The notes beneath the pieces are model-generated. The model saw nothing but the letters and a program-made list of their open reading frames with translations. It did not search any database and was not told the DNA's origin. Below are positions 9,393 through 20,046 of a stretch of 20,695 nt of DNA, in pieces. Each line of letters begins with the position of its first letter. Position 1 is the stretch's first letter. This stretch comes from a virus, in the IMG/VR virus record IMGVR_UViG_3300007344_000336, positions 1 through 20,695 of that record. The stretch is one strand, 5' to 3'. The position numbers were made by a program, and so were the translations under genes.

Positions 9393-9800
9393 TTATTTAA
9401 TATCTACCTTCTGAGAATTTCTCTCAACTTCTTTGATACCAAATTGGATCTTCAACATTCCATCTTCCATTTTAGCTTCATCTACAATAGCTTCATTGGG
9501 TAATGAAAATTGTTTGAAGAAAGATTTAGTTGATAAACCTTTTTGTACATAGTCAACTGCTGCGTCGTCTACTTTTCCTTCAATAGTTAGAACACCATCA
9601 TTAACTTCTACAAGAACATTTTCTTTCTTGAAGCCAGCTAATCCTAATTCCAAACCATATTTACCTTTAGAATATTTCACAACATTCCAAAAAGGAAAAC
9701 CAGTTACTTTTGACCAAGAATCAAAAACGCCATCAAAGACATCTAATCCTTTGTTAAATAATTGTTTATGTACTGAATTTATTAAATCAAAACTTGTCAT
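9393..9800 (-). CDS. small heat shock protein, Hsp20/alpha-crystallin family
   Basis: A 135-aa ATP-independent holdase-type chaperone. The N-terminal arm (1-42) is hydrophobic and aromatic (VFDGVFDSW, FPFW), as usual for substrate binding. The alpha-crystallin domain (about 43-123) shows ELGLAGFKKENVLVEVNDG (51-69), LTIEGK (71-76) and KMEDGMLKIQFG (110-121), the last being the family's conserved A-x-x-x-n-G-v-L strand. A V-x-I motif (VDI, about 132-134) near the C-terminus matches the oligomerisation I-x-I motif. The Shine-Dalgarno AAGGAG (9807-9812) is 6 nt from the ATG. It has its own promoter and is the last gene of the leftward virion-side block. In marine phages Hsp20 is thought to aid virion folding; here that is inference. 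Confidence 0.95.
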   Translation of the reverse strand: MTSFDLINSVHKQLFNKGLDVFDGVFDSWSKVTGFPFWNVVKYSKGKYGLELGLAGFKKENVLVEVNDGVLTIEGKVDDAAVDYVQKGLSTKSFFKQFSLPNEAIVDEAKMEDGMLKIQFGIKEVERNSQKVDIK

Positions 9801-10750: not shown

Positions 10751-11446
10751 TTACCTTAATAAACTAACCAGTCCCCCTTGTAAATACCCTGCTCTACCAC
10801 CTGTTGCCATTTTAGGGAAGTATTTATTTGCAAAATCAATTAAACCTAAACCTGTGCCGGCTTCTCCACCAGCATTATCATACATTTCCTGAACCGTGAT
10901 CCAATAGTCTTGACCATCCGAACCATTTGAAAAACCAACTCTTCCGCCTTTTGCGAAAGAACCACCTGTATCACCACTATCATTAGCCCCTGCTGCACTT
11001 GCAGCAGCTGCGCCTGCAGCTCCACCTGCGGAAGCATCTGCTCCAACAGATTGAGAATTAACATCATCTACACCATGAGTAGGACCAGAAGTCATACCAG
11101 CTACAGAATCAACTCCATAACCTTCTGTTCTTCCTCCAATTCCTCTTCCTATTCCCATAGCATCCATTGCTCTCTCTGCAAGACTTAAACCTGTCGTGGT
11201 CCGTGATGCAAGATTTGCAACACCTGCAATAGGGTTTAAAGCTAAACTTACCATGTCCATCATTGTTGGTTGAAATGTACTTGGTACTCCCGTTGGAGTA
11301 GTTGTAGTAGTTGTTGTGCTATCTCCAGTACTCGCAACACTTGGTTGGATTTGTAAAGACCCAATACCTTGTACAGGAGCTAATGCATTAACTCCAGCGT
11401 AAGGATTTTGTAAATAACTTTGATATATTTCGCTAAATGTTGCCAT
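10751..11446 (-). CDS. Gly/Ala-rich phage protein with two GGRxGY motifs (231 aa)
   Basis: A low-complexity-rich protein of 231 aa. It has a short helical N-terminus, a Thr run (44-50), an aliphatic segment (about 62-80), a Gly-rich stretch (100-122) and an Ala/Gly tract (about 139-155). A compact C-terminal part follows, with FAKGGRVGF (164-172), YWITVQEMYDNAG (181-193), LGLIDFANKYFPKM (about 200-213) and MATGGRAGY (213-221). The GGRxG[YF] motif recurs in the 549- and 612-aa proteins, which links all three to one virion or assembly system. It starts 6 nt after the stop of the 1409-aa gene, whose end supplies a GGATAA ribosome site. I recall similar proteins only from marine phage genomes; function unknown. 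Confidence 0.7.
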   Translation of the reverse strand: MATFSEIYQSYLQNPYAGVNALAPVQGIGSLQIQPSVASTGDSTTTTTTTPTGVPSTFQPTMMDMVSLALNPIAGVANLASRTTTGLSLAERAMDAMGIGRGIGGRTEGYGVDSVAGMTSGPTHGVDDVNSQSVGADASAGGAAGAAAASAAGANDSGDTGGSFAKGGRVGFSNGSDGQDYWITVQEMYDNAGGEAGTGLGLIDFANKYFPKMATGGRAGYLQGGLVSLLR

Positions 11447-11452
11447 ATTTCA

Positions 11453-14400
11453 TTATCCAAATAATATATTATAACGTTCTCCCAGTGGAAGGCTAGCTAA
11501 ATTTTGTTGTGTTGGAGGCGCGCTTACTACCTGAGCATTAACAGGAGTTCCAGAAACCTGTGAAGGTAACTCAGGTTTAGGTGTTTGAGTTTGTGGTACT
11601 ACCGTAGTTGGCCTAATTAATTCCCTAGCTTGTTTTACTCCAGGGGTTAAAATTTCATCAATCGTAAGTTCTAAAGTTTCAACAGGACTATCTAAACTAA
11701 ATCCTTCTAAATCAAATTTTAAATCATCAAATATTTCTAAAACATTCTCTACTTGATTTTCAAATTTAGCAGCAGCAATAGGGTTTTCTTTATCTAATCG
11801 TTCTATTAAACTATCAAATCCTTTTTGACTTACTCCACGTATTTTAAAACTACCCTCTAATAGATCTTTACTAGTTGATTTTGTTAATCTTTGTTTTAAT
11901 AAATCTCCCATTTCTGTATCCTCAATACCTAAACGGGTAGCATCTTGTATTGTAGTAAACATTCTTTTTTGACTAATAAAACTTTCCAATAAAAACTGTT
12001 TATAAGATGCTATTTTTTCTTCAGGTGAATTAGCTGCATTGTAGATAGATCTTGAAAATTTACTATTAATATTTTGTCCATCTCTTTGAAAAGAATTAAT
12101 AATAAAAGGCATACTAGCTAAAGGTTTAGCTTCTTCTACACGTAACCCAGTCATTAAAGTAGTTAATTCAGTAGCTCCATCTCTCATGGTTCCTGTGTCT
12201 GTAAATTGTTGAGTAGCCCCTTGCCATACTCTAGTAGCAGAAGTAACAGCACCTGGAGTTAATCCTCCTAAAACATGTTCTATACTTTTAGTGATTTTTA
12301 CATCAGGAGAATCGTTTTCATAATAAATAGTTTTTCCGCTAGAGGTTTTACCTCCTCTTCCATAAGGAACTACATCTGTTACTCTTTCTGTACCAATAGA
12401 TTCAGATACAAAAGGAGAAATAAATTCAGTTAAGGCCCCTTGTCTACCTTGACCACCTAACATTCCTCCAAATAAAGCATTCATAACAATAGTGTCCACT
12501 GAATCTTTATTTAATTTACCATCTGCAAAATTTCTAAAAATAGCATTTACAGGAACTACTAAAGAATCATAAGGATTAGAATATGAAAAATTAAAATATT
12601 TAAAATTTCCTTTATCATCTGGTTTACTTAATGGAATTAGGGTTGAGTTTTTTTGATAAGGAGCAGAGAAAGATCTTTGGAAAGATTCCATTTGTTCTGG
12701 AGTCACACCCGTTATATGTTCTGCTGTTTTCTGTATAACAGTACCAGCGCCACCTAACACTGTAGAAACACCTAATAATCTTTTAGCACCCATTTGTCTA
12801 ATTAAAGGATTAGTACTTGTAAGTTCTCTAGCCCCGAAAGAAATAATATTAGCAGTAGTTCTTAATATCTCAGCCGGAAAGGCTATAAAATTACCTATAG
12901 GTAAATCTCTTATATTTTCAATAATACGAGGAACCTTACTATATGTAGGCATTGTATTGGTTACGATTTCCGCTGACATTTCTTCTAACATGTCTTTAAT
13001 ATTTTTTTTACGGTATCCACCTTCAGCAAAAATATTATCTGTGTTAAATTCTTTTTTTAAAACATCTCTGTAGTAATCTTTAACTTGTTTTTCAAACTCA
13101 ACTGTTTTAGCTAATCCAGCTGCTTTTACTTTAGGGTCTGCACTTTTAGTCATTGCTATAATTTCATCTGGATTACCAAAAGATGTTCTTAAAGCTCCTT
13201 GATAAAAATCATCTGCATAAATTTTCCAATAGTTATCTGCTCCTTGGTAAATAGATGTAAGTCTTTTCATTTGAGGTAATTCCATCATTTGTTCGTAACT
13301 TATTCCAGATGTTTGAGCTTTTTTCATAACCGCTCTAATATCTCCAAGGGCTACGTTTTGATCAATAACACCTCTTGATATTAAATTTTCTAACTTAGCA
13401 ATTTGTTCTACACTTCCTCTAGCAGAACCTAAAACATCATTAGATATAAGTCTCCAAGCATCTTTAAATCCTATCTTTCCTCCTATCAAACCATTGGCCA
13501 AAGCAAAGAAAGATGCAGTAGTAAAGTTTCTAACTTGAGTAGTAGGAGATAAAATTGTTTTACTAACCTGAGCCGCTGCTTTTAAATTCATATATGCTTT
13601 GTAAAAAGGTAATTTATATAGATTACTCGTTGCAGTTGGACTTTGCATAATAGCATCTGCAATTTCTGGTAAAGCAAATACTTGATCATCTTTAAGACCG
13701 CTAAACAAAATACTTTCATTAACTAAGGTCTTAGGACCACCTTGAGCTACAATAGGTTTTAAAGCAACTTTACCTATACTTCTAGCATCGGCTGCTTTTC
13801 TCCCTTGTACTAACCAACCATCTTTCAATCCTTGTTCTAGTGTATAGTCAGCAGCTTTTCTACTCATGTATTGTTCTGATTGAAATAATACAGTGTCCAT
13901 CACTGATCTTTTTAAATCAGAGACAGGTACATCAATCATCTTACCTGTTTGTATATCTTTAATTTGACTTCCTTTAGGAACAGAAAATAAATCTTGAATT
14001 CTTTTATCTAATAAACTTTCACCCGGTTTTACTTTAGTTGCATCTACTACAGTACGTTCAGATATACCTTTAAATGTAGTACGTAGATCACCTGCTGCAT
14101 CTGAATTAATCGCATATGATTTCAAAGCTAACATTTCTGTTTTAGCTTGTTCATCTACCAATCTATTATATACTTTTGTGTATTTTTCCCCTGAAGAAAC
14201 TCCTGTTTCTTTCAATGCTTTTGCAGCTATTTCTTTAGTAGATATGTCGCTGCTTAAAATTTTTTCTTTAAAAAATCCTACGGCTTTTTCTTCTTTTGTA
14301 GGATCGAATTTAAAATAAGGATTTCTAAACCCTGGTAATATTTGTTGAGCTCTTGTTTTAAAATCTAAAGCAACTTCTCCTTTAAAATCTAAAGTAGAAG

Positions 14401-15682
14401 CATAATTAGTAAGTCTTTTATCAATAGCATCTATTTTATTTTTTGCTCTTAAAGCATCTTTTCTAACCCTTGGATCTAAACTTAAAAAGGTTTCTTTAAA
14501 TTCTTGAGGTTGAGTTTTTTTATCTAATTTAAAGAAATTAAATACTTTATTGTTTTCTGCTTGTATGTAAGGTAAACTTTCTCCCTTATCAAAAAGTTTA
14601 AATTTATATCCTTTTACTACTTCTACATTTTGTTCTTGTATTTTATCTAGAAGATTTCCAATTGTTTTTTCTTCAGCACTGATTTTACTTATGATATTTC
14701 TTTGAACGTCACGTAAAGGTCCTACAACACTATCATCCGTAAAGTTATCTTTCCATACACCCAATTTTCTCAATATTTTATTTTTAACATTACCTTCTGT
14801 AGGTAATTCTTTCCATGTTTGTATATTGGGTATACCTGTTTTTTTAAATCCTTCATCAACCAAAGCACCTGTTTTAATAACTGCTTGTTGTAATAAACTA
14901 GTTTCGTTTTTACCTACCACCGCACTAATTGCTTTACTGACAGGATAATCAATAGCTCTAATTAATTTACCAGCTACAGGAGCAGAATATTGAATAGGTT
15001 TAATAATTCCATATTTAGCACCTAATGTTAATGCAGTTGGTAATAAAGGAATAGCACCTCCTACTACAGAACCTTCAGCTCCAAATTTTAATTTTGTTTT
15101 TAATGTTTCAGAAGCTCTTTCACTTCCCTCTAATTCACTTACGTCTTTTTGTTCTGTGATTCCTAATATATCAGATAATGTTCCTTGCTCTGAAGTAGAA
15201 GCTACAATATCAGAAGCACCTCCAATAGCTCCAAAGTAACCAGCTCTTTTAGCAAGTTCCATTCCTTTAGCACTTGCAGAAGGTAAAGAAGATAACTTAG
15301 TCATTGTACTAAGATTTTTTAATTTTGAAATACCCCCTGCTATTTTTAAAGCAGCTCCCCCGGGAACACCAAATTGTGTTATAAAAGATGTAACTTCACC
15401 TAATCCTGTTTTAGTTTCAGGGGTTTTTAAAAAACCTTCACTAAAGATTTGATCTATTCCTTTTAATAAATTTGTATTACCTATATAGTCTATAGGAAGA
15501 GCACCTAGTTCTAACAAACCTCTGACTGCATTACTTAATCCTTTTGCAGGACCTGTAATTAAAACATCTTGTATATATTCACCTATCCCAACATCTCCAC
15601 CTCTAGCCGGAGTTATTTCTTCTTCAGCAGCTGTATTATTAGATTGAGATAACTGCATTAATTCTTCGAACGAAAGAGCCAT
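11453..15682 (-). CDS. giant internal virion / DNA-ejection-type protein (1409 aa)
   Basis: The largest gene. The sequence is helix-rich with Ala/Gly/Leu segments that could contact membrane: about 45-65, 100-118, 146-162, 201-225, 722-737 and 964-983. The motif SPTTQVRNFTTASFFALANG (712-731) resembles the T-x-x-RN-type element of phage 'large polyvalent' and internal virion proteins. PIGNFIAFPAEILRTT (about 928-943) is a second feature I associate with these. The tail (about 1350-1409) is Pro/Gln/Thr-rich and ends LGERYNILFG. I see no lysozyme or transglycosylase motif. By size and position it may be the counterpart of T7 gp16-type ejection proteins. Good Shine-Dalgarno AGGAGA overlaps the stop of the upstream 549-aa gene, 7-nt gap. 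Function by analogy. Confidence 0.62.
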   Translation of the reverse strand: MALSFEELMQLSQSNNTAAEEEITPARGGDVGIGEYIQDVLITGPAKGLSNAVRGLLELGALPIDYIGNTNLLKGIDQIFSEGFLKTPETKTGLGEVTSFITQFGVPGGAALKIAGGISKLKNLSTMTKLSSLPSASAKGMELAKRAGYFGAIGGASDIVASTSEQGTLSDILGITEQKDVSELEGSERASETLKTKLKFGAEGSVVGGAIPLLPTALTLGAKYGIIKPIQYSAPVAGKLIRAIDYPVSKAISAVVGKNETSLLQQAVIKTGALVDEGFKKTGIPNIQTWKELPTEGNVKNKILRKLGVWKDNFTDDSVVGPLRDVQRNIISKISAEEKTIGNLLDKIQEQNVEVVKGYKFKLFDKGESLPYIQAENNKVFNFFKLDKKTQPQEFKETFLSLDPRVRKDALRAKNKIDAIDKRLTNYASTLDFKGEVALDFKTRAQQILPGFRNPYFKFDPTKEEKAVGFFKEKILSSDISTKEIAAKALKETGVSSGEKYTKVYNRLVDEQAKTEMLALKSYAINSDAAGDLRTTFKGISERTVVDATKVKPGESLLDKRIQDLFSVPKGSQIKDIQTGKMIDVPVSDLKRSVMDTVLFQSEQYMSRKAADYTLEQGLKDGWLVQGRKAADARSIGKVALKPIVAQGGPKTLVNESILFSGLKDDQVFALPEIADAIMQSPTATSNLYKLPFYKAYMNLKAAAQVSKTILSPTTQVRNFTTASFFALANGLIGGKIGFKDAWRLISNDVLGSARGSVEQIAKLENLISRGVIDQNVALGDIRAVMKKAQTSGISYEQMMELPQMKRLTSIYQGADNYWKIYADDFYQGALRTSFGNPDEIIAMTKSADPKVKAAGLAKTVEFEKQVKDYYRDVLKKEFNTDNIFAEGGYRKKNIKDMLEEMSAEIVTNTMPTYSKVPRIIENIRDLPIGNFIAFPAEILRTTANIISFGARELTSTNPLIRQMGAKRLLGVSTVLGGAGTVIQKTAEHITGVTPEQMESFQRSFSAPYQKNSTLIPLSKPDDKGNFKYFNFSYSNPYDSLVVPVNAIFRNFADGKLNKDSVDTIVMNALFGGMLGGQGRQGALTEFISPFVSESIGTERVTDVVPYGRGGKTSSGKTIYYENDSPDVKITKSIEHVLGGLTPGAVTSATRVWQGATQQFTDTGTMRDGATELTTLMTGLRVEEAKPLASMPFIINSFQRDGQNINSKFSRSIYNAANSPEEKIASYKQFLLESFISQKRMFTTIQDATRLGIEDTEMGDLLKQRLTKSTSKDLLEGSFKIRGVSQKGFDSLIERLDKENPIAAAKFENQVENVLEIFDDLKFDLEGFSLDSPVETLELTIDEILTPGVKQARELIRPTTVVPQTQTPKPELPSQVSGTPVNAQVVSAPPTQQNLASLPLGERYNILFG

Positions 15683-15689
15683 GTATCTC

Positions 15690-17339
15690 CTATGTTTGAG
15701 GTGGTAGTACTAAATTAACACCATATTTAACATTAAAATTACCTACGTCTTGTTGAGTTTGTAAGTAAGCAAAATCTTGTAAAGCTTGTTCATTGTTAGC
15801 AATTAAGTTCACTACATCATCTGTTATTTCTTGAGGAAGTCTTGCTCTTAATTCTGCATAAGATAATTTCATAACTGGTTTGACAGCAGTTTCATTATTA
15901 TTAGCAGCTACTTCAGAAGTAACTATTTCATCTACTGTTTCATCATCCATGGTACTACCGTCAGCATACTTAACTCTACCTCCGCTAGCATAACCACCTA
16001 TGTATTCAGGTTTTCTAAGACTAGGGCCATATACTGTTGAGAAACCTGGAAGTTTTGAAAGACCTCTAATATACTCTGTGCTTTTAAGTAAATTATCTTG
16101 TTCGGCTTTAGTTAAAGTTTCACCTCTTTCTACTTTACCCTGTAAGGTATTTATTTTTTGAATGTTTTTACTTATGTCTTCACTTTCTTTAGAAAGTCTT
16201 GTTTTGGATAGAGCTTCATCAAATTTATCTTCTCTAAAATAGTTAGAAAGGGTTCTTTCTTTAATTTGATCTTTTGTTAAACCATCGTAAAGAGTTTCTC
16301 CACTAGGACCTTTAGTAATGTTTTTAGCTGTTTTAACTGCAGACTCAACTCTAGCGTTAATCATTCTTTCTGCTGCATCTGGTTTACCGGCTTTTATTTG
16401 TTCGCGTTCTTTTTCTTTAAATCGTTTATAAGCTTCTAAAGTAACTGCCTTATCTTCTTTTCTTCTAGTCGCAGCAATACCCGCACCTAATTCTCTTGCT
16501 TTTGCTAATTTTTTATTAATTCCCCCCTTAACTGCTAAGGACTCTGCAAGAAGTAATGCCATTTCTCCCTTACTATATTTCTCATCTTTTAGTAAATCTT
16601 TTATAAACTCTGCTTCTTTTTTTACTTCTTCTTTAGCAGAAGACATACCTTCTTTTTCTTCAGAAGGTGGAGGTGTTATTTTTTCTTTAACTTCAGGTTT
16701 ACGATCAGGTATCTCTGTTAAATAATCTGAAAAATCTTCTGTAGGTATTTCAGTGTCTTTTCCTGTGTCTTTTCTTTTTGCTAATATTTCTCTAGATTTT
16801 GCTGTTCCCATAGCTCGTAGCACAGAATCAGGAAGTTGTTCTATACCTAATGGAGTTCCTGTTTCATTTAACGTTTTTAATGTTTCAGCATATTTTGTGT
16901 AATCATCTCCAGCAGAATCAACTCCAGCAGTTTCATCAAAAACACCACTTTCGTTCATTGATTTCATATATTCTAATGCTTCTACGGTTTTAGGTCTATT
17001 TAAATAAGCAAGACCTGCAACTGGTGCAAAAGTAGATCCCATTAAACCTAGACCAGCTAAACCTCTTCCGATACCTATACCAGATGGTTTCGGTTGATTT
17101 ACTACTGTAAGAGCTCTTCCTGTTGGTTGCGGTTGATTTACTACTGTAAGAGCTCTTCCTGTTGGTGTTTGACCAGAAAACATTCCACCCGTACCTGTTA
17201 ATCTAGAATCTACTCCTTGAAGTGATCCGCTACCTAAAGCAAAATTAGACCTTGGTTCAACATAAGACATGATCCCTGATCCCTGGGCCGCGCTTCCCCC
17301 TTTACGGAACATGGGTCTTTTTAAAACTCTATTGTACAT
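15690..17339 (-). CDS. virion/assembly-associated protein with N-terminal MFRKGG motif (549 aa)
   Basis: Residues 9-30 (PMFRKGG...GIMSYVEPR) form a motif I associate with uncultured marine phage virion proteins. A 13-residue unit, PTGRALTVVNQPQ, is repeated in tandem at 59-71 and 72-84. One hydrophobic Gly-rich segment lies at about 86-112. A long Lys/Glu-rich charged region (about 190-430) is probably mostly helical. GGRVKYADGS (453-462) is a variant of the shared GGRxGY signature. The C-terminal 60 residues (SYAELRARLPQEI to YGVNLVLPPQ) look like a separate small domain. It overlaps the upstream 289-aa gene by one base (TAATG). Likely structural or ejection-related; no enzyme motif seen. 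Confidence 0.65.
   Translation of the reverse strand: MYNRVLKRPMFRKGGSAAQGSGIMSYVEPRSNFALGSGSLQGVDSRLTGTGGMFSGQTPTGRALTVVNQPQPTGRALTVVNQPKPSGIGIGRGLAGLGLMGSTFAPVAGLAYLNRPKTVEALEYMKSMNESGVFDETAGVDSAGDDYTKYAETLKTLNETGTPLGIEQLPDSVLRAMGTAKSREILAKRKDTGKDTEIPTEDFSDYLTEIPDRKPEVKEKITPPPSEEKEGMSSAKEEVKKEAEFIKDLLKDEKYSKGEMALLLAESLAVKGGINKKLAKARELGAGIAATRRKEDKAVTLEAYKRFKEKEREQIKAGKPDAAERMINARVESAVKTAKNITKGPSGETLYDGLTKDQIKERTLSNYFREDKFDEALSKTRLSKESEDISKNIQKINTLQGKVERGETLTKAEQDNLLKSTEYIRGLSKLPGFSTVYGPSLRKPEYIGGYASGGRVKYADGSTMDDETVDEIVTSEVAANNNETAVKPVMKLSYAELRARLPQEITDDVVNLIANNEQALQDFAYLQTQQDVGNFNVKYGVNLVLPPQT
17091..17166 (-). repeat. 39-bp perfect tandem duplication inside the 549-aa gene
   Basis: The 37 bases at 17091-17127 recur exactly at 17130-17166, an offset of 39 bases (13 codons), so frame is kept. 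The lack of even silent differences within the shared 37 bases points to a recent slippage duplication. It encodes the PTGRALTVVNQP[QK] repeat. Confidence 0.9.
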
Positions 17340-18208
17340 TATTTACCGAATAAACTTCCTAAGCCGTAAACAGTAGCAGCTCCAGAAAGTGCTTGACTTA
17401 AAGGACTAGCTGTTCCAGCTCCTTGTTGTTGAGTCATGTAAGCTTGAGGTTGTCCTGCCAATAATCCTCCTGTTACAGAACTTAAAAATTGTAATCTATT
17501 ATATGGTTCATAAGCCGCTAACTGTCCAGCTTGAGCTTGAGCATCTCTAATAGCTTGTTCGTAAGCTAAGTTAGAAGTTCCAGTAGCACCTAACTGTTGA
17601 ATTCCTGATTGTGCTAATGAAGGTTGTAATGAAGCAAGACCCGCTTGTTGTTGTTGAGCAACAGCCGCAGCTTGTTGTGCTTGACCAAAACCTTGTTGTT
17701 GTAATTGTGCTTGTAGTAAAGCTCTGTTTAAATCTGATTGTGATTGATATTCTGCTGCTTGAATTTCACCTCTTCCTTGACCAAAAGCACCTTGAGCAAC
17801 TTGTTGTGCTGCTAATGGTTGCATTCCTTTTTGTGCTTGAATATCAAATTGTTTTAATGTCGTGTCTATTACATCTTGTTGATAAGGAGACATGAAAGAC
17901 TGATAAGCTTGTGGTCCAGAGTAAGCTGCTGCTTGTTGTAGATAAGGTTGATATCCTGCAACACCTGTTCCCGCACCAGCACCTGTAACAGAACCTGTAG
18001 TAGGATCAAAAGTTAATGTACCAAGTCCAGCTTGTGTTGCTGCTTGTTGTTGTGCAGCTTGTGTTAATACGTTTTGTCCAGCAATCGTTGGAGCAAATTT
18101 AGTAGTATCAACTGGTTGACCGGTTAACTGAGTAGTAAGATCTAATAATGTTTGTCCAGCGGCCTCTAAATAAGGTGCTGGTCTTGATATCGTTGTTTGT
18201 TCGGCCAT
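17339..18208 (-). CDS. Gln/Ala-rich virion protein, probable ejection or tail-associated (289 aa)
   Basis: A 289-aa protein dominated by Gln, Ala and Gly. A helical core (about 100-200) carries FMSPYQQDVIDTTLKQFD (105-122), GAFGQGRGEIQAAEY (140-154) and LQAQLQQQGFGQAQ (165-178). This series resembles a widespread phage family with [Y]-x-x-[D]VxDxTL and GAFGxxR motifs, found among tail and ejection genes. The C-terminus (about 233-289) has a Gly-rich weakly hydrophobic segment ending LGSLFGK. No Cys and no catalytic motif. Both ends overlap neighbours by one base (TAATG), so it is translated in step with the 612- and 549-aa proteins, as expected for parts of one virion structure. Exact role unknown. 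Confidence 0.65.
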   Translation of the reverse strand: MAEQTTISRPAPYLEAAGQTLLDLTTQLTGQPVDTTKFAPTIAGQNVLTQAAQQQAATQAGLGTLTFDPTTGSVTGAGAGTGVAGYQPYLQQAAAYSGPQAYQSFMSPYQQDVIDTTLKQFDIQAQKGMQPLAAQQVAQGAFGQGRGEIQAAEYQSQSDLNRALLQAQLQQQGFGQAQQAAAVAQQQQAGLASLQPSLAQSGIQQLGATGTSNLAYEQAIRDAQAQAGQLAAYEPYNRLQFLSSVTGGLLAGQPQAYMTQQQGAGTASPLSQALSGAATVYGLGSLFGK

Positions 18209-20046
18209 TATACTAATTTTCCTTCCAACATTTTCATTGTGTTATACATTTTTTGTGCTCCTTTTTGAACACTTCCACCACCAGCTGCTCTCACAGCATC
18301 AGCAGTAAATACAAATTCATTTTTAGATAACATTGCTGGAACGTCATCTGCCTTTTCTTTTACACCAATCGGAACAAAACCGCCAGTATTTCTATAGTCT
18401 AATTCAGTAATACCACCTTCATTTCTTCTAACTGGTACTTCGGATCCCATTGCATATCCCATTCGTTCATATCTAGGTGCTTGTTTATAGTCATATTTTT
18501 GATAAAATCTTCTCCTACCTTCTCTTTTATCTTCTACTTTATTTTGATAATCCATAGGCATTTTATCAAATTCTCTATAATTAAGTTCTGGGTTAGGTTC
18601 ACCAAAGAAAAATACATCTTCTCCAGTTTTTCTCATTAATTGTAATAAATAAGGATCGCTTTCATAATTAGATTTTTTCATACCTTTAGTTTCTTTTTCA
18701 GGTAAAGTAATACTAGGAGCTTCTGAAGTTAATCGTAACCATTCATTTTTAGTGATAGGTTCTCCTTTTTCATTTCTATAAATAACCCCTGATCCCTGGT
18801 CCGTTGGAGACATATATTGTTTATCTTCATCTTCTTGAGTTCTTCGTAAAAATTCTTCTTTTGTAATAGGTTCTTCTGTATCTGGATCTCTATAAATAAC
18901 ACCAGAATCTTCATCTGTTAAAGAAACAATACCTTCTCTAGGTGTTCCATTTTCATAACCAATTCTTCCACCATTAGCTTGACCAAGTACATCTTTAATC
19001 ATTTGATCAGATGCTCCTGTAATGCTTTTAATAGTATCTATATCTGCTCCTCTTTTGCTCATATCTTTAATTTGTGCAATTCTTCTATTAATAATTTCTT
19101 GAGAAGGTGTATTTTCTTCTGCTGATGGTTTGGTTCCATCTCCATAACCAATTCTTCCACCATTAGCTTTACTTTCAATACCGAAAGAAGAAGCAGGTAA
19201 ATTACCTTGGTATTTAGACATGTACTTATCTCTCTCAGCATTATATGCTGCTTCATCAAATTCTTCTAAACCAGCTTCATCAGCAGCTTTCTTAGCATCC
19301 AGATAACTTGGGATAGTAACTAAGGTTGCTAACAATGCTGTTTTGTCTAATTTAGATCCTACAATATCACCTTCTTTGTTTGTAATAGGATTGGTGTAAA
19401 TATCTTTTAATGCTTTACCACCTAATTCTGTTGCTGCACTTCCCATTTTAGTAAAATCACCGCTAAATAAATCTTTAGCTATATCCATGTAACCTCTAGA
19501 TTGTGCCGGAGTTTGAGATAATTGTTTTACCACATCTGTGGTTGATCCTAAATTAGTAGCTGCTTGGTCTTGTAAGTATGTTTGTGCTTGAGTAAGTTGA
19601 TTTGGATCAGCAGCAAATTGAGCTTGTCCAAACATAGGTGCGCCTGACACAGGTGAAGTAAATGTTTGACCTAAGCCAGACATAATACCACCAGAAAAAC
19701 TTACATTTGAAAAAGGATTAAAACCTTGTTGAAAACCTGCTCCACCAATACCTCTAGCTAATTGTCCACCACCATAGGTAAGTAAACCTCTTTTTAAAGA
19801 AGAACCAATACTACCCGTTTGATCAAAACCACCAATACCGGCCATATATCCTGCTAGTAATGGATTAAAAGGTGCTACAAAAGGAGCAGCTTTAACTGCT
19901 ATATCTGCTACCTCATTCGGTATGATATTTCTTACAAATTTTTTAAGTTTACTTCCAAGGCCAAATTTCTCTCTACCATTCTCAGGGGGGAAATAACTAC
20001 CTAGTCCATATAATTGTCTATTCATCTGCATTCTACCAATTGTCAT
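18208..20046 (-). CDS. virion protein with GGRIGY repeats and conserved DVPAMLS/AVRAAGGG C-terminus (612 aa)
   Basis: Regions in order: basic N-terminus (LGSKLKKFVRNIIPNEVA, 30-47); Gly/Ala hydrophobic part (about 50-130); GGRIGY at 296-301; a helical section, about 317-355, reminiscent of a helix-turn-helix; GGRIGY at 359-364; two copies of a roughly 38-residue unit beginning SGVIYR (381 and 419) and containing EPITKxExLR; charged section (450-540); and the C-terminus ADDVPAMLSKNEFVFTADAV (566-585) with AAGGG and KMYNTMKMLEG. That C-terminal pattern is widespread in phage structural proteins. Start is uncertain: ATG 20046 lacks a Shine-Dalgarno, while M6 (20031) or M8 (20025, GGTAGA upstream) would fit a leader. 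Stop overlaps the 289-aa gene (TAATG). Confidence 0.65.
   Translation of the reverse strand: MTIGRMQMNRQLYGLGSYFPPENGREKFGLGSKLKKFVRNIIPNEVADIAVKAAPFVAPFNPLLAGYMAGIGGFDQTGSIGSSLKRGLLTYGGGQLARGIGGAGFQQGFNPFSNVSFSGGIMSGLGQTFTSPVSGAPMFGQAQFAADPNQLTQAQTYLQDQAATNLGSTTDVVKQLSQTPAQSRGYMDIAKDLFSGDFTKMGSAATELGGKALKDIYTNPITNKEGDIVGSKLDKTALLATLVTIPSYLDAKKAADEAGLEEFDEAAYNAERDKYMSKYQGNLPASSFGIESKANGGRIGYGDGTKPSAEENTPSQEIINRRIAQIKDMSKRGADIDTIKSITGASDQMIKDVLGQANGGRIGYENGTPREGIVSLTDEDSGVIYRDPDTEEPITKEEFLRRTQEDEDKQYMSPTDQGSGVIYRNEKGEPITKNEWLRLTSEAPSITLPEKETKGMKKSNYESDPYLLQLMRKTGEDVFFFGEPNPELNYREFDKMPMDYQNKVEDKREGRRRFYQKYDYKQAPRYERMGYAMGSEVPVRRNEGGITELDYRNTGGFVPIGVKEKADDVPAMLSKNEFVFTADAVRAAGGGSVQKGAQKMYNTMKMLEGKLV
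18954..19169 (-). repeat. 27-bp direct repeat encoding the two GGRIGY motifs of the 612-aa protein
   Basis: Copies at 18954-18980 and 19143-19169 are identical over 27 bases and 189 bases (63 codons) apart, in the same frame. They encode ANGGRIGY. Sequence between the copies is unrelated to what follows the second, so this is a repeated motif rather than a recent block duplication. Confidence 0.9.

Follow-up and report, generated by a model that had tools for sequence, protein, structure and literature searches.

The internal proteins of phage T4 form a highly diverse packaged set whose members have in common only a short capsid targeting sequence (CTS) (PMC3012670). Cargo proteins of encapsulins carry C-terminal peptides such as TVGSLRR, GSLGIGSLR, and GSLNIGSLK (PMC10960027). 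In phage T7, the core and ejected proteins gp6.7, gp7.3, gp14, gp15, and gp16 are encoded in a late block and leave before the DNA, and gp6.7 is located around the portal (PMC11784390). In this study, we analyzed a fragment of a viral genome (IMG/VR record IMGVR_UViG_3300007344_000336; 20.7 kb, positions 1 to 20,695), the whole of which is referred to as the window. Its gene order is that of an HTVC023P-type podophage, with Pelagibacter phage HTVC027P as a relative. Three proteins of 231, 549, and 612 amino acids (aa) encoded in the window share a short Gly-rich peptide. We found that this peptide is conserved in the order of its residues and is nearly restricted to two gene slots, and we give an even chance to the interpretation that it is a short linear docking (packaging) motif for virion-interior proteins.

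A twelve-residue motif in three proteins

The sequence-only reading of the window had pointed to five GGRxGY-type copies in three otherwise unrelated proteins, and all five were confirmed at their places (Table 1). When the motif was masked, the 231-, 549-, and 612-aa proteins fell into three different BLAST clusters. The pattern GGRx[GK][YF] was seen 5 times, compared with a mean of 0.02 and a maximum of 2 in 3000 shuffles of the window proteins, and shuffles of the window DNA gave 0/100. A chance origin of the copies was rejected by both controls. The GGRxGY word is real, and the unit is longer than had been noted: in 5/5 window copies, Ala stands two residues ahead of the GG and xxG[GST] follows the aromatic residue. 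The full motif is A-x-G-G-R-[IV]-G-[FY]-x-x-G-[GST], 12 residues in length. The two GGRIGY copies of the 612-aa protein have the same DNA across all 18 bases. MFRKGG, previously taken as the start of the 549-aa protein, occupies residues 10-15 instead (MYNRVLKRPMFRKGG), and homologues of the gp84 family show the same RPMFRxGG behind a short leader.

The motif was searched for in viral contigs as a degenerate DNA pattern for [FY]AxGG[RS][IVM]G[FY]xxGG, and at least 120 stretches were found. Among the viral matches listed, 119/120 were in frame within an open reading frame (ORF). In bacterial and archaeal genomes (257 Gb), the same pattern occurred 10 times; several of these stretches were outside any ORF, one was identical to a viral locus, and most look unrelated. 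A host-derived motif was rejected, since 10 cellular matches are about the count expected from base composition alone. In the viral collection, the reversed-peptide pattern gave 1 match, compared with at least 120 for the forward pattern. This control disfavors a plain Gly-rich, low-complexity linker, in which composition would be conserved and order would be free. Further copies in the same proteins, which had not been selected by the search pattern (n = 126), contained Ala at -2 in 76%, Gly at +4 in 79% followed by an aromatic residue or Leu, Gly at +8 in 94%, and Gly, Ser, or Thr at +9 in 75%. The GG of the motif was invariant. The motif residues are fixed although overall protein identity is 20-30%, and the Gly and Arg codons of the motif vary about as much as the rest of these genes. 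Therefore, the constraint acts on the protein, and a DNA-level element was rejected.

The motif-masked carriers formed at least 26 clusters, the largest of which was chained through shared modules. A full-text literature search for an earlier description of the motif words returned only an unrelated flavivirus paper, and nothing relevant was found in the literature on Gly-rich tape-measure motifs and twin-arginine virion proteins. No copy was present in the cultured phages HTVC010P and HMO-2011 (first 50 kb of the latter). A motif-bearing sequence, RNDDGPRFADGGRVGYEAGGFTPP, was common to a viral contig with an SLT domain and an Azospirillum tabaci scaffold (L018, L137), which places the motif also in a likely prophage outside the ocean.

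Gene slots, modules, and tails of the carriers

Two gene slots were defined, namely the TerL-portal interval (slot 1, gp41/gp42 in HTVC027P) and the block after the tail genes (slot 2, gp82/gp84). In the motif-selected loci, 142/150 carriers were in slot 1 or slot 2; here and below, the slot counts enter related sequences separately and give the direction, not exact odds. Because this sample had been chosen by the motif, two further samples were drawn without it, 79 loci by gp83 and 79 by the portal. In the gp83-chosen loci, the motif was present in gp82 (59/78), gp84 (17/57), and gp85 (3/53), was absent from gp83 (0/79), and was carried by just three other genes. In the portal-chosen loci, genes of the TerL-portal interval carried the motif in 33/95 cases and the C-terminal tail described below in 25/95, compared with 0/91 upstream genes, 0/41 TerL, 0/79 portal, and 3/429 downstream genes. 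Both samples drawn without the motif limit the carriers to the ejection block and the TerL-portal interval, bar about six genes, and the motif occurred in none of their TerL, portal, tail, or replication genes. The idea of a motif tied to virion proteins, which an equal frequency in non-virion proteins would contradict, survived this test. In the portal-chosen sample, only L284:9486-9788, L341:9965-10225, and L294:3929-4270 carried the motif outside the two slots; these genes encode 86-113 aa, lie downstream of the portal, and include two that are gp49-like.

From protein families and gene positions, we infer that the carriers are located in the virion. In HTVC027P, gp83 has a match in a DNA ejection protein family (5.6e-6), the portal is gp43, and the capsid protein, gp59, falls in a major head protein family. 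The C-terminal DDVPAMLSKNEFV region matches tape measure families in the window and in HTVC027P gp82 (E 1e-4 to 6.5e-6), and 19/45 relatives matched as well. As the match is limited to this domain, we did not assign the 612-aa protein to the tape measure proteins. The 1409-aa protein of the window is also matched by structural proteins of Cellulophaga phages. Outside the HTVC023P-type group, carriers have SLT, glucosaminidase, and ART-PolyVal domains, which are usual in ejected proteins, and in L035:1-3405, the portal extends past GGSIGFAEGG and ends in a phage lysozyme domain (PF00959, 6e-21). L061 and L081 likewise have a portal with a long C-terminal extension holding GGSIGFAEGG, and a 1531-aa carrier with an ART-PolyVal domain (L016:4191-8786, E 1e-34) lies downstream of a portal. 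Slot-1 carriers mostly had no family match, and for two slot-1 proteins, the phage collection also yielded no match. No useful match to a solved structure was obtained for the gp83 or gp85 family, and the text of the HTVC027P transcriptome paper names no stage for gp41/42 or gp82-86.

The carriers are modular. In the AlphaFold2 (AF2) model of the 231-aa protein (shallow alignment, mean predicted local distance difference test score (pLDDT) 43), only residues 178-209 were folded, and both motif copies were in low-confidence stretches. Parts of this protein recurred in TerL-portal slot proteins of relatives with 46-86% identity. In other phages, its module 176-215 was found between motif copies of slot-1 proteins (E down to 9e-18; up to 86% identity over 35 residues). 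In the 612-aa protein, the stretch that separates the two copies had a match in a slot-1 protein (E 2e-4). The recurrence of small modules in both slots indicates that the same modules move between the slots.

A second, related peptide, AxGG[LI]xx[LM][LF], formed the C-terminus of 42/134 carriers compared with 13/1579 other proteins (P 3e-38, a value that takes related sequences as separate). Such a tail was very frequent in the first gene of complete TerL-portal intervals (NASGGLPHILGV, NARGGLNYLMGM, FAKGGLAKILEV). In L095, L113, and L120, one gene ends in RTLNAxGGRIGI(S/N)SLF(K/R)(R/K)K and the next gene starts with MADKPK...RRGFL. L013, which is 76-81% identical to these split loci, has a single fused gene that reads RTLNAKGGRIGFQDGSDFKGGPKIGRRAFL. 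Thus, the internal copy corresponds to the C-terminal tail of another phage (AxGGRIGISSLFKRK before the stop), and in this family, it is a former or future C-terminal module tail.

Slot-1 proteins of relatives outside the window contain a module that resembles a twin-arginine translocation (Tat) signal, in which [KR]RxF[LMI]K and a Gly/Ala-rich hydrophobic stretch (for example, MDRRGFLKLLGG) lead into a conserved domain that is about 170 residues long. RRxFLK with a moderately hydrophobic region was present in these slot-1 relatives, and RRxF[LMI] occurred 41 times in 150 carriers compared with 10 times in 849 further genes from these loci. In 45 aligned instances, the module was either stand-alone, with RRxFLK at the N-terminus, or fused behind GGRxGYxxGG, with RRxFLK internal; HTVC027P gp42 ends in one, with KRKFIK. 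Pfam TAT_signal matched 4/65 members (best E 4e-4), and TIGR01409 was just below the cut-off. The slot-1 RRxFLK segment may be a Tat signal. AF2 predicted the slot-1 module as a confident beta meander between helices (pLDDT >90 for residues 51-140), and in a fold search, this domain had only weak matches, among them p32/Mam33-like ones (Foldseek E 0.04; Z up to 6.8), and could not be assigned.

The 612-, 289-, 549-, and 1409-aa proteins follow the gene order of gp82-85 in HTVC027P and in phage 023Pt_psg01, where a SNF2-type helicase on the opposite strand is next after this block. In the window, a gene for S-adenosylmethionine decarboxylase (PF02675; 9935-10516) and a small ORF, Hsp20-type chaperone-like by eye (9393-9800), are placed between the ejection block and the helicase.

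Table 1. Features of the window, in order of position, with examples of the Tat-like module from other loci
Feature	Position	Strand	Remarks
231-aa protein	10751..11446	-	ORF; two motif copies and C-terminal tail
C-terminal tail GGLVSLLR of 231-aa protein	10754..10777	-	type GG[LIV]xx[LM][LF]
Motif copy 2 of 231-aa protein, ATGGRAGYLQGG	10772..10807	-	GGRAGY 10784-10801; near C-terminus
Small helical module between copies, residues 178-209	10820..10915	-	common to slot-1 proteins; AF2 and matches
Motif copy 1 of 231-aa protein, AKGGRVGFSNGS	10919..10954	-	GGRVGF 10931-10948; AF2 pLDDT about 34-42
1409-aa protein, gp85-like virion structural protein	11453..15682	-	without motif; PHROG_22602, 1.6e-15
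549-aa protein, HTVC027P gp84-like	15690..17339	-	N-terminal RPMFRKGG; one degenerate motif copy
Motif copy of 549-aa protein, ASGGRVKYADGS	15954..15989	-	GGRVKY, residues 453-458
MFRKGG of 549-aa protein	17295..17312	-	conserved near N-terminus of gp84 family
289-aa protein, gp83-like	17339..18208	-	without motif
612-aa protein, HTVC027P gp82-like	18208..20046	-	two motif copies
DDVPAMLSKNEFV domain, C-terminal in 612-aa protein	18232..18387	-	tape-measure-C-terminus-like; PHROG_5448, E 1e-4
Motif copy of 612-aa protein, ANGGRIGYENGT	18943..18978	-	GGRIGY 18955-18972
Motif copy of 612-aa protein, ANGGRIGYGDGT	19132..19167	-	GGRIGY 19144-19161
Tat-like module examples	L006:6912-7751, L077:3602-4282, L063:957-2924, L060:1005-3605; HTVC027P gp42		

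Docking and its alternatives

A short conserved peptide in disordered regions of otherwise unrelated proteins within a single compartment typically points to docking. Proteins carried within the virion would display the motif (for example, AKGGRVGFSNGG) in their C-terminal tails and disordered linkers, and all of them would bind through it to the same partner, which could be the portal, the core, or the inner capsid wall. One receptor would in this way load many unrelated cargo and ejection modules, several copies of the motif would add up, and the carriers would leave the virion with or before the DNA. The docking peptide and the capsid or ejection-complex retention signal that had been suggested from the sequence are the best-supported readings, and the mechanism given here is our proposal. 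A wider scheme is doubtful. In this scheme, a single family of peptides, with AxGGRxGY as the internal form and AxGGLxxLLG or GVGSLFRKK as the terminal form, would address the cargo of HTVC023P-type phages and dock in an encapsulin-like manner on the inner capsid or portal, and the TerL-portal interval would be a swappable cargo bay that includes a host-delivered, Tat-signal-like membrane module.

Several points weigh against docking. gp83 and nearly all gp85 proteins have no motif, though they are surely in the same block; not every interior protein therefore needs it. About a quarter of gp82 proteins and half of the TerL-portal intervals are without an internal copy. A single phage group supplies almost all carriers, and as a result, shared descent and module shuffling inflate the counts. 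The virion-interior location, the common receptor, and the loading function are also all steps that we infer.

The alternatives that remain, from more to less likely, are processing at the GG, a linker that aids threading, and a scar left by shuffling. A phage or host protease could cut beside the GG and free modules from polyprotein-like precursors, as would fit the invariant GG, the frequent position of the motif at module borders (for example, GGM-DRRSFLK, where other phages begin a new gene), and its position between portal and lysozyme in L035. We regard this as unlikely, since a cut at the many copies that are 7-25 residues away from the C-terminus would release nothing, conservation after the GG equals that before it, and relatives with split genes retain the motif. 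HTVC027P gp56-58, between the portal and the capsid, match no protease family, which is no proof of absence. The head-protease cleavage site proposed by the sequence-only reading is thus weakened by the C-terminal copies, the separate-gene junctions, and the lack of a protease profile upstream of the HTVC027P capsid. It is also quite unlikely that the motif is a flexible, easily unfolded linker through which multi-module proteins are threaded through the portal and tail, and for which only composition would count. The copies are Gly-rich and lie in low-pLDDT stretches around small helical modules; however, the reversed control shows that order matters, a spacer needs none of the conserved Arg, [IV], aromatic, and Ala(-2) residues, and C-terminal copies join nothing.

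Modules swapped between slots have motif flanks, and the borders of split and fused genes coincide with the motif. These observations would be expected of a domain-shuffling scar that spreads at exchange borders of modular genes and has no function of its own. This origin is improbable, because synonymous codons vary about as background, which makes a DNA-level exchange sequence unlikely, and because the residues are fixed at 20-30% overall protein identity. The Arg and aromatic residues among glycines, and the membrane-like RRxFLK segments behind the motif in many slot-1 proteins, recall RGG-like stickers that would bind nucleic acid or membrane and hold the proteins to packaged DNA or to the host membrane during ejection. 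Such a role is very improbable, as the carriers have one to five spaced copies and no RGG arrays, and domain searches found no DNA-binding domain in them.

If the docking interpretation is correct, a 12-residue tag predicts the virion-carried, injected proteins of a very common ocean phage group, most of which are without a known family. The set of injected proteins of SAR11 and related phages would become searchable by sequence, and the tag would be of use for bringing foreign proteins into virions of this kind.

Comparison with known systems

The N-terminus of the gp82 family had T7 gp7.3 as its best solved match (E 7.6e-4), but the match ran over a Lys-rich low-complexity stretch, and no known T7 protein contains AxGGRxGY. 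Phage polyvalent proteins are large mosaics of exchangeable modules and enzymes that are thought to be delivered by the virion, and the carrier in L016 has the ART-PolyVal domain found among them. Unlike polyvalent proteins, most carriers had no known enzyme domain in domain searches.

In T4, the CTS is found at the N-terminus, and the prohead protease cleaves it off. As with the CTS, unrelated proteins here share a short sequence, their genes are in late, head-related positions, and they are probably packaged. Unlike the CTS, the motif occupies internal or C-terminal positions in almost every carrier, is often multiple, has another sequence, and shows no sign of processing.

The Family 1 encapsulin targeting peptides are short C-terminal peptides of Gly/hydrophobic type through which unrelated cargo enters an HK97-fold shell. 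The tails found here (GGGVGSLFRMK, GISSLFKRK) resemble such peptides by eye only, and [LIV]G[ST][LM] was present in 8/70 tails compared with 12/1622 other C-termini. A C-terminal peptide is present in the 42/134 carriers noted above, whereas the GGRxGY copies are mostly internal and have no encapsulin counterpart. Membership in neither the T4 CTS nor the encapsulin peptide family can be claimed, and the resemblance of the tails to encapsulin peptides may serve as a lead. If the docking interpretation holds, these phages would provide a test of whether phage capsid cargo tags and encapsulin targeting peptides share a docking principle.

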